This document shows positions 58,510-61,934 of a DNA stretch of 64,000 nt, piece by piece. The translations under genes and the position numbers were made by a program. Source of the stretch: a virus; IMG/VR virus record IMGVR_UViG_3300047440_000434, positions 1 to 64,000 of that record, one strand, 5' to 3'. Within the stretch, counting starts at the first letter, position 1. Each line of letters begins with the position of its first letter. Under the pieces are notes generated by a model. It ran no database searches and was not told the origin of the DNA. It saw only the letters and a list, made by a program, of their open reading frames with translations.

Positions 58510-58671
58510 TTACTCCCGTATTAAACTACAGTCGTGCGCGACGTAGCCATCACATGGGATGTCGCACTCAACCTCGGCGTATGCCATGTCGCGTGCTTCC
58601 TGCTCATTCTCCGCTTCATAGTCAGCAGCATAGTCACGGATGATGTAGGTTTTCACCATATATTTCGGCAT
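58510..58671 (-). CDS. 53-aa acidic protein
   Basis: It begins MPKYMVKTYIIRDYAADYEAENEQEARDMAY and ends HDCSLIRE, so the last five residues and TAA are encoded by the repeat copy 58509-58525. This resembles the small phage N-terminal beta-strand proteins with an acidic helix. Ribosome site from repeat copy 58676-58692. Confidence 0.6.
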   Translation of the reverse strand: MPKYMVKTYIIRDYAADYEAENEQEARDMAYAEVECDIPCDGYVAHDCSLIRE

Positions 58672-59815: not shown

Positions 59816-60277
59816 TCAGCGCACCCGTTGCGGATTGCGCCATCGTATGGCCCACGAGTCCGGCCCATCACACTTCAGGCAGATGCGCGTCCAATCGGTA
59901 AGGAACTCGGTGATCGGTTTGTACACCCGGCACATGCGGCACATGCGATGCGAGAGCCGGGGGCCGGTGTTCTCTTTCTGCCCGCGCTGCTCGCGGTAAC
60001 GCTCGCGGTAGTATTTGTTGCGGCCCTCGCGGGTCATCGTGATCGCGGGTTCGCCGCTCGCCTTACGCTCGGCTTCGAGCAGTTTCACGCTACCGGATAG
60101 GCTACGCATCACACGTTTGAGTTTACAGTGCAGGCAAACCTTATGCCGATGCGTTTCATAGTCCGCGTTGACACGATATTCTCTACAGTTGCGACACTTG
60201 CGCCCCGGATTGTTAGCGTCGAAGCGGAGCGTGTTGGTCTCGAAGGGGGGTGGAGAGGGTAGTGTGGGTTTCTTCAT
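59816..60277 (-). CDS. Double zinc-ribbon protein
   Basis: 153 aa from ATG 60277 (AAGGAT about ten bases upstream); an upstream frame to 60571 is not supported. Two repeated units, CRNCREYRVNADYETHRHKVCLHC and CRMCRVYKPITEFLTDWTRICLKC, each CxxC-x(15)-CxxC, the pattern of zinc ribbons in phage HNH/endonuclease-VII-like proteins. Between them is a basic helix with Tyr/Arg repeats (YYRERYREQRG). It likely binds nucleic acid. Confidence 0.6.
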   Translation of the reverse strand: MKKPTLPSPPPFETNTLRFDANNPGRKCRNCREYRVNADYETHRHKVCLHCKLKRVMRSLSGSVKLLEAERKASGEPAITMTREGRNKYYRERYREQRGQKENTGPRLSHRMCRMCRVYKPITEFLTDWTRICLKCDGPDSWAIRWRNPQRVR

Positions 60278-60494
60278 GGTGCGGTAGATCCTTATGTCGG
60301 GGTCAGGGTTGGAGCGATTGTTTGTTACTCCGGTATTAAACAAAGGCACAACTCGACAGCGCCAGATCATGGCTATTATGGACAGAATGTCATTTTCAGG
60401 TGTCATTCCCTGCCAAGCAAAGTCGAGCACGGGACAATGGTCGATCCCGAATAAGTGATTGATCGAACGCGATAATTCGCGGCGGCTTGCTATA

Positions 60495-60519
60495 CTGTTT
60501 GTGGTGTTGCCACAAACAG
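60495..60519. promoter_or_regulatory. Strong dyad, possible operator
   Basis: Ten-base arms CTGTTTGTGG and CCACAAACAG with loop TGTTG. A shorter form of the same core (TGTGG-TTG-CCACA) lies in the divergent region at 3281-3293, which suggests a shared regulator. Confidence 0.55.
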
Positions 60520-60608
60520 GAGGGCTTAGGAACCAGGGGGCATAGAGAGTGCGCGACATGGCAGTCCTCACGCGTAACGTGATATGTTTGGTGCAGCTTC
60601 ACATGGCA

Positions 60609-60652
60609 ATCATTATTTATTTATATATAATTTTAATAATATCAATAACTTA
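60609..60652. promoter_or_regulatory. AT-rich island
   Basis: About 44 bases, nearly all A/T, in a genome where few such runs exist. Leftward, TTGATA followed by TATAAA is present, with a spacing of about 14 bp instead of 17. It may be promoter DNA or a duplex-opening element of an origin. Confidence 0.5.
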
Positions 60653-60773
60653 GAGCGCGGTCGAGCCCAGCAAAAGTGCTGCAATTTCTTGGTCGAGCAC
60701 GTCGGATCAATGGGTTACCTTGCGGCACTCGATCCATGCGGCGCGGAAAACATTTGTTAGTTGCGGGCGTGCA

Positions 60774-60908
60774 CCGGATCATTCGATGATCCGGCCCTGG
60801 CCCTACATATTCACTCGCTTTGTCTAGCGTGCGCACGCTAACGCGCACGTTAGAGCAAGCGAGCGGGGGGTATCATCCCCCCGCCGCTCATACCCACACA
60901 CTAGTGTG
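60774..60908. repeat. Cluster of five palindromes
   Basis: Arms: CCGGATCAT/ATGATCCGG (60774-60794, loop TCG); TAGCGTGC/GCACGCTA (60825-60840, no loop); CTAACG/CGTTAG (60838-60853, loop CGCA); GCGGGGGG/CCCCCCGC (60863-60884, loop TATCAT); CACACT/AGTGTG (60897-60908). A larger dyad CTCGCTT/AAGCGAG (60814-60863) encloses the middle two. Confidence 0.7.
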
Positions 60909-60912
60909 GAAA

Positions 60913-60930
60913 GTTACTACCCGTAGTAAA
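60913..60930 (-). repeat. Dispersed inverted repeat with two-base centre
   Basis: GTTACTAC-CC-GTAGTAAA, the only copy I found with two central bases, placed between the palindrome cluster and the end of the gene at 60932. Confidence 0.7.
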
Positions 60931-60931
60931 C

Positions 60932-61885
60932 TCAGGCCACCAGCAGGGACGTCATCACCTGACGCTCGATCAGGTTGGCGCTCGCGGCGGCACGCGCCGC
61001 CGCGTCACCGATCAGGCTATCAAACTCATCGTAGTCCAGCACGCCCTCGGCGACATCGGCTTCCGCTTGCGCGGAAGCCTCAGCAGGGGCAGGAGCGGCG
61101 ATGACAGGCGCGGGGGCTTCCACTACCGGCGGCGGCGTAAGCGCCGCCTGAGAGGCAAGCAGGGTCTTACGCGCGGCAAGCAGTTCCTCGGTCGTGATCG
61201 TGCGGAGATACTCGGCGGCGGTTTGCAGTTCCTCCATCCCGAAGTCCGCGTGGAAGGCGTCGATGCTCGCGATGATGGTCTTGAGGCGCGCGGCCACCTT
61301 GGTGGCGTTGTGGTCCGGGTCGTTCGCCACCGCGTAGTCCACGAGGTCCTGCTTGGACATGCTCCCGTTGAGCGTGCCATCCTTCACGGCGCGGGCGACA
61401 TTCATCAGCAGGTGGTAGAACCTGCTCTGCCACTTGCGAACCGGGGTTTTGATCGCGTCGCGATCCTCACGCTCGACCGATGCGAGCAACTCAGTCTCAT
61501 CGGCCCATGCCTCATCGCAGATTTCCCGCAGGTTCGGCAGGTAGCCGCGAACCTTGGGGCTCGCGAAGGTCTTCATTTCGGAGATGAACACGCCCACGCT
61601 CTTGGCGCTGCGCGATGCGTCGCCGCCCGATGCGTTGCCCATTTTCGCGGCACGCTCGCAAGCCTGCGCCACTTCGCCGTTGGTCCAGTCCTCGGCGTGC
61701 GCCATCGCGGCCACGTCCGTTACCACGCTGAGCCGGGTATTGCTCCCGTCACGCGATGCCTCTTGCATCGCCTCTTGCGCGTCTTCCATGCGCTGCGTGG
61801 GTTCGGCGACAGCCGAGCACGCGGCGCGGATGCGGTGCGCGATATCGTCAACGCGGTCGGATACCATCGGGGTTGATTTGGCCAT
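60932..61885 (-). CDS. Hypothetical early protein, 317 aa
   Basis: GGAG about nine bases before the ATG, within repeat copy 61891-61907. N-terminal helix bundle (RVDDIAHRIRAACSAVAEPTQRMEDAQEAMQEAS), a Ser/Gly-containing loop, then helices (KWQSRFYHLLMNVARAVKDGTLNGSM, LVDYAVANDPDHNATKVAARLKTIIASID) and an acidic Ala/Pro-rich tail. Such a helical protein first in an operon could be a DNA-binding or replication factor. Not recognised. Confidence 0.6.
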   Translation of the reverse strand: MAKSTPMVSDRVDDIAHRIRAACSAVAEPTQRMEDAQEAMQEASRDGSNTRLSVVTDVAAMAHAEDWTNGEVAQACERAAKMGNASGGDASRSAKSVGVFISEMKTFASPKVRGYLPNLREICDEAWADETELLASVEREDRDAIKTPVRKWQSRFYHLLMNVARAVKDGTLNGSMSKQDLVDYAVANDPDHNATKVAARLKTIIASIDAFHADFGMEELQTAAEYLRTITTEELLAARKTLLASQAALTPPPVVEAPAPVIAAPAPAEASAQAEADVAEGVLDYDEFDSLIGDAAARAAASANLIERQVMTSLLVA

Positions 61886-61934
61886 GGTGTGTTACTCCGG
61901 TATTAAAGTTGAGGGTCCAAGCAATGCGCTTGCT

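Follow-up and report, generated by a model that had tools for sequence, protein, structure and literature searches.

What does a dense cluster of palindromes do at a place where no protein gene accounts for it? The question is raised by positions 60774-60930 of a 64,000-nucleotide stretch of viral DNA (the window), for which an earlier note had proposed a replication origin, a complex operator or a terminator array. The answer bears on more than one phage: for a large group of uncultured podoviruses, previously without annotation, it maps the main control region in a form that can be tested.

Genome setting and the palindrome cluster

The source record, a virus contig of 64,310 bp, repeats ~155 bp of one end at the other with a few mismatches, which makes the map circular, at ~64.15 kb. 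Its gene set is that of a podovirus, with a T7-type portal/head-tail adaptor, a major head protein and an internal virion protein. A terminase, a family-A DNA polymerase, a primase/helicase with DUF927 and a PD-(D/E)XK nuclease are also encoded, together with giant tail-fibre and DarB-like proteins, including a 2505-aa protein that resembles DarB/LPD39 antirestriction proteins. None of the proteins scanned was recognised as an RNA polymerase. The structural genes are read rightward from 3.3 kb, and the replication genes leftward from ~60.3 to 41 kb. A search of a phage collection gave no close match to the virus; the terminase is 42% identical to that of Rhizobium phages, and a terminase search gave 67 loci. 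In relatives, the large terminase subunit (382-1854) keeps 92-99% identity, compared with only 62-79% for the 317-aa protein next to it.

This 317-aa protein is encoded by g317 (60932-61885, minus strand), the last gene of the first leftward group. It matches no Pfam or PHROG family. Orthologs are found in the close relatives L002, L003, L004 and L006 at 62-79% identity and, more distantly, in L041, L048, L051, L052, L092, L065, L079, L081 and L086. The stop codon occupies 60932-60934, and the palindrome cluster begins 2 nt past it. The next gene, for a 153-aa cysteine-rich protein that is 78% identical in L004, lies at 59816-60277 on the minus strand, leaving ~650 nt between the g317 stop and the start at 60277. 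Comparison supports no protein gene in this gap (60279-60931). One frame opening with ATGATC was rejected: it has 46 open codons in the window and in L002, a stop after eight codons in L004, and unrelated lengths elsewhere. A search of Rfam gave no family above the gathering threshold in the window, and the noncoding stretch itself returned weak matches only (E at least 0.78).

The density of palindromes claimed for 60774-60930 holds up, and all those named are present. Counting arms of 6 nt or longer, this interval has eight perfect dyads, whereas 500 dinucleotide shuffles average 0.3 and never exceed 3; the densest 157-bp span for perfect dyads in the 64 kb starts at 60828 and overlaps the cluster. 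From left to right, the dyads are CCGGATCAT-TCG-ATGATCCGG at 60774-60794 (arm 9, loop 3); those at 60825-60840 (arm 8, loop 0), 60828-60849 (arm 7, loop 8) and 60838-60853 (arm 6, loop 4); the hairpin at 60863-60884 (arm 8, loop 6); CCACAC-ACTA-GTGTGG at 60894-60909 (arm 6, loop 4), which encloses another at 60897-60908 (arm 6, loop 0); and a copy of a genome-wide repeat at 60914-60929 (arm 7, loop 2). The overlapping dyads at 60825-60840 and 60838-60853 are indeed enclosed by a larger one (60814-60834/60843-60863), but its 21-nt arms are 86% complementary, so that it is imperfect rather than perfect. The repeat copy is likewise a perfect dyad with two central bases, but spans 60914-60929 and not 60913-60930.

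Long palindromes are also found nearby. The window has 11 perfect dyads whose arms reach 9 nt or more; six fall within 60.5-62.7 kb, two of these inside g317. The two intergenic gaps just upstream of g317 hold long perfect hairpins, at 61935-61960 (13-bp arms) and 62697-62722. The former, between a 110-aa gene and g317, is a perfect 26-bp palindrome, ATTGCGCGCGGTTAACCGCGCGCAAT, the longest perfect dyad of the window.

A conserved hairpin pair behind g317

In the homologous stretches of L002, L003, L004 and L006, only two of the cluster's structures are kept, termed here hairpins A and B. The stem at 60774-60794 is specific to the window, only its CGAATGATCC half (minus strand) being kept in relatives, and the dyad at 60894-60909 is absent from all four. 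Judged by the relatives, the five dyads of the cluster are not one unit. Hairpin A (60863-60884, minus strand) is an 8-bp GC hairpin, GCGGGGGG-AUGAUA-CCCCCCGC, with a compensatory GC-to-AU pair in L003. Hairpin B (60814-60863, minus strand) is a ~20-bp imperfect stem with compensatory changes at three pairs; in the window it comprises 20 bp with one mismatch and a bulge. The two abut without a spacer, share base 60863 and are located 2-120 nt past the g317 stop.

Pairing is maintained across the relatives. For the two hairpins together, 95 of 96 cells are paired and four pairs carry changes on both sides, compared with 38-57% pairing in slid controls; close relatives are few, four sequences being usable for these counts, and neither E-values nor shuffles take phylogenetic dependence away. 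RNA folding z-scores range from -4.4 to -6.0 in the window, L002, L003 and L004, and are -8 in L041 and L065. In a strand test based on G-U pairs, the minus strand accommodates 95 of 96 cells and the plus strand 87 of 96, with one excluded pair pointing the opposite way; as the minus strand was the one used to predict the structure, the preference is only suggestive. In the loci searched, a covariance model of the element matched no additional complete copy. A GUUAG loop with CUAAC downstream can also be seen by eye, a candidate for a large pseudoknotted RNA.

In most relatives a strong hairpin follows g317, and among the more distant ones its placement is similar while its sequence can be unrelated. 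Directly after the g317 stop of L041, a 9-bp hairpin abuts a perfect 19-bp hairpin, reproducing the same design; L065 carries a single long stem there, L048 a short hairpin, and L081 and L086 a strong hairpin followed by TTTT. No obvious hairpin pair follows the stop directly in L051 and L092. Long stems of ~18-22 bp also occur in L004, L041, L065 and L081, and in most relatives no part of the noncoding stretch folds more strongly than the first ~100 nt past the stop. Conservation of place and shape, and not of sequence, is what would be expected of an RNA 3′-end signal.

Two mechanisms of 3′-end formation deserve comparison. In phage T7, processing hairpins cut by RNase III sit between early genes. 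These also are ~20-bp stems with internal loops in the untranslated gaps of the early operon, kept in position and free in sequence, and the ~20 bp of double-stranded RNA (about two helical turns) expected of such a site is present here in an intergenic gap. The present element differs from those of T7 in that a second short hairpin is stacked on the long one, that ~500 nt of noncoding DNA follows instead of the next gene, that the phage has no recognised RNA polymerase of its own, and that its cleavage is a prediction. Intrinsic terminators resemble it as well: a stable GC-rich hairpin lies directly past the last stop of a gene group, and its counterparts in L081 and L086 have TTTT tails. Unlike them, the window and its close relatives have two abutting hairpins, one of ~20 bp, and no U-tract; the tails in the window read UCGCUUGCUCU and UGAAUAUGUAGG, and a terminator scan lists nothing at 60774-60930 on either strand. 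In this phage group the missing U-tract speaks against canonical intrinsic termination, although one is present at the corresponding position in distant relatives. In the window, RNase III processing or 3′-end protection is as likely as termination.

These features bear directly on a plain form of the terminator array first proposed, in which intrinsic or Rho-dependent terminators of the upstream operon are followed by nothing but the promoter of the next. The location past a stop codon, the TTTT-tailed hairpins of L081 and L086 and a promoter in L041 (below) are in its favor. It is nevertheless unlikely, as the U-tract is absent from the window, L002, L003, L004, L006, L041 and L065, terminator stems are usually shorter than ~20 bp, and a conserved 12-mer and an extreme AT island farther along the stretch are left unexplained.

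The best explanation combines an operon 3′-end RNA element, formed by hairpins A and B, with an adjacent control region that is most likely an origin and/or an upstream promoter; as a joint proposal, it has about an even chance of being correct. Leftward RNA of the first operon would most likely be cut or ended at the hairpins, yielding a protected 3′ end. The pair would mark the 3′ boundary of that operon through RNase III-type cutting, 3′-end protection or termination without a U-tract. Beyond it would extend a ~350-nt untranslated control region that includes an IHF-type bend site, the 12-mer and the AT-richest stretch, and that would feed the next operon, containing the replication genes, via its leader. 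Counting against this reading, neither hairpin in the window is followed by a U-tract, although near 40.0 kb, also leftward, the same phage has a hairpin with TATTTTTAT behind it.

The adjoining, probable control region

Within the gap, the hairpins occupy the side of the g317 stop and an AT island occupies the middle. The island, placed correctly by the earlier note 120 bp to the left of the cluster, spans 60595-60654 and contains 49 A/T among its 60 bases. No 60-mer of the window is richer in A/T, and the island also ranks first in genomes G001 and G003 and second in G002; it may serve as an unwinding element or as part of a promoter.

All full relatives carry TAACYCATTGAT, or a close variant, past the hairpins and ahead of the next gene; it could serve as a short tag marking the control region in distant relatives. 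In the window, this conserved 12-mer (TAACCCATTGAT, 60706-60717, minus strand) misses the IHF consensus YAANNNNTTGATW by one base, and TAACYYATTGAT has a single exact occurrence. On the opposite strand, the 12-mer matches that consensus nearly or fully. A second copy, TAAGTTATTGATA (TATCAATAACTTA), at 60640-60652 on the minus strand, matches the consensus WATCAANNNNTTR fully and is one of only two full matches in the window. Such matches number 0 to 3 per genome, with one inside the noncoding stretch in the window, L002, L034 and L041. Among 17 distant-relative records searched whole, the 12-mer occurs once in 12 and never in five, and a reversed control pattern occurs in none; the match in G006 has an ordinary AT context and probably arose by chance. 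In the distant G005, G007, G008 and G017 the 12-mer is not at an AT island, which suggests that it may serve a function without one. In L126 and L117 (G008 14709, G005 44526; also G017 10905), it extends into a longer conserved ATTGATAnnGGCTGnGnTGTGGCGGAACGGCAC. Two wider searches were set aside: 24 of the 26 viral-contig matches to ACATTNTGTCCATAATAG are unrelated coding sequence, and a genome-contig match, L037, is unrelated.

An origin is a natural candidate for this arrangement. Bacterial oriC and plasmid origins include IHF-assisted origins with an AT-rich unwinding element. Here too an IHF-consensus site adjoins the part of the genome richest in A/T, and both sit in noncoding DNA before the replication genes, so that an AT-rich element of the expected kind is present. 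The difference lies in the initiator sites, as the noncoding stretch contains neither convincing iterons nor a DnaA box (TTWTNCACA), and in the standing of the origin itself, which here is a candidate. The ~350 nt beside the palindromes would fit an origin better than the palindromes themselves. In four genomes, the extremes of orientation-corrected GC skew fall 2-4 kb away from the 12-mer, with opposite sign by lineage; the skew is not decisive because its sign varies and the genes on the two sides agree only partly in orientation.

Two forms of the origin proposal can be distinguished. Tentatively, the family may keep a DnaA-independent origin, built from the IHF-like 12-mer (usually once per genome) and the AT-rich element and insulated by the shape-conserved pair of processing hairpins. 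If the region is an origin, replication in these phages starts without DnaA boxes or obvious iterons. More doubtful is a DNA-level origin comprising the whole of 60.28-60.93 kb, palindromes included, in which palindrome extrusion, IHF bending and AT-rich unwinding would prepare opening by the primase-helicase. The first-ranked AT island, the IHF-consensus site, the conserved and usually single-copy 12-mer, the skew extremes near it and the six of 11 long perfect dyads in 60.5-62.7 kb would all suit such an assembly, as would the encoded DUF927-type primase/helicase and family-A DNA polymerase. It is weakened by the missing iterons and DnaA boxes, by the inconsistent sign of the skew across lineages and by the poor conservation of most palindromes; moreover, the hairpins change completely in sequence and stay in position after the stop, a pattern better suited to an RNA 3′-end signal.

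With the terminase genes a few kb away, the IHF-type site could also belong to a DNA packaging or cleavage site (cos/pac), and the related contigs L038 and L039 end here at homologous positions. This possibility is very remote. The record ends overlap by ~155 bp elsewhere, consistent with the circular map, other contigs cross this place with no further clustering of contig ends, and the likely small-terminase gene lies at 2.5-3.3 kb.

Beyond the control region lies the conserved leader of the next leftward gene (60279-60400, minus strand), in which a GACATTCTGTCCATAATAG block precedes a Shine-Dalgarno repeat, TTTAATACCGGAGTAA, at 60325-60340. In the leader region of L041, at the far end of the stretch, a good sigma70-type promoter is found (TTGACA-18-TACACT). 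Two other promoter assignments were rejected. A conserved TTGAT fits as a -35 box in the window, L002 and L034 and has no -10 partner in L051, L092, L065, L066 and L074; for N4-type hairpin promoters, no RNA polymerase was found and the 60774-60794 stem is not conserved. The block GACATTNTGTCCATAATAG ahead of the next gene (60395-60420) is strictly conserved in L002 and L004, and within it GACA-TTC-TGTC forms a small dyad adjoining a possible -10 box.

The 16-nt repeat and neighbouring noncoding DNA

The palindrome nearest to g317 belongs to a 16-nt repeat, TTTAATACSGGAGTRA, which is distributed genome-wide, near-palindromic and carries the Shine-Dalgarno core GGAG; it occurs also in G001-G003. 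The window contains 27 copies of Shine-Dalgarno type (e.g. 60325-60340, 61892-61907 and 58510-58525), 16 of which lie 3-11 nt before an ORF start. Some copies run over the stop codon of the gene upstream (LIRE*), and others are found in different settings, in part within genes. The repeat is reminiscent of the start-associated sequences (SAS) of cluster K mycobacteriophages, a Shine-Dalgarno-bearing repeat placed 3-7 nt before start codons (PMC3203893). As in SAS, the GGAG core often lies a few nt before starts and the copy can overlap an upstream stop. The present repeat differs from SAS in its sequence, in being near-palindromic and in occurring also inside genes, and the cluster's own copy differs in being without the Shine-Dalgarno part. 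This atypical copy (60913-60930, minus strand) contains the perfect palindrome TTACTAC-CC-GTAGTAA, lacks GGAG and has no gene start after it. Relatives show imperfect, ordinary or intermediate forms at the same place, such as TTTAATACGGGAGTATG in L002 and TTTACTACGGTAGTATG in L004.

This copy could mark an operator cluster for a phage DNA-binding protein, with the palindromic repeat as the repressor site and the remaining palindromes as auxiliary sites. The copy at 60914-60929 is perfectly palindromic and has lost its Shine-Dalgarno part, and palindromic versions of the repeat, near-perfect palindromes TTTACTAC and GTAGTAAA, stand on both sides of the 12-mer in L066 (9200-9300) and L080 (12000-12100). 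Such an operator is improbable, however, as the window has one copy of this kind, none is found by the same test in G001-G003, and the other palindromes are unrelated in sequence. A multi-site operator is not supported, since hairpins A and B are the only conserved palindromes and the window has no second repeat copy in palindromic form. Of the three functions first proposed for the cluster, the terminator array finds support in the form of an operon-end hairpin, the origin would fit the adjoining ~350 nt better, and the operator finds no support.

Upstream of the first leftward genes, a second apparently noncoding stretch of ~800 nt occupies 62640-63460. It may be a second conserved noncoding element, since the related DNA of L004 (GTGTGGAAAGCCCCCGGCGCAACGGGATGTCGCTACC) has a different reading frame.
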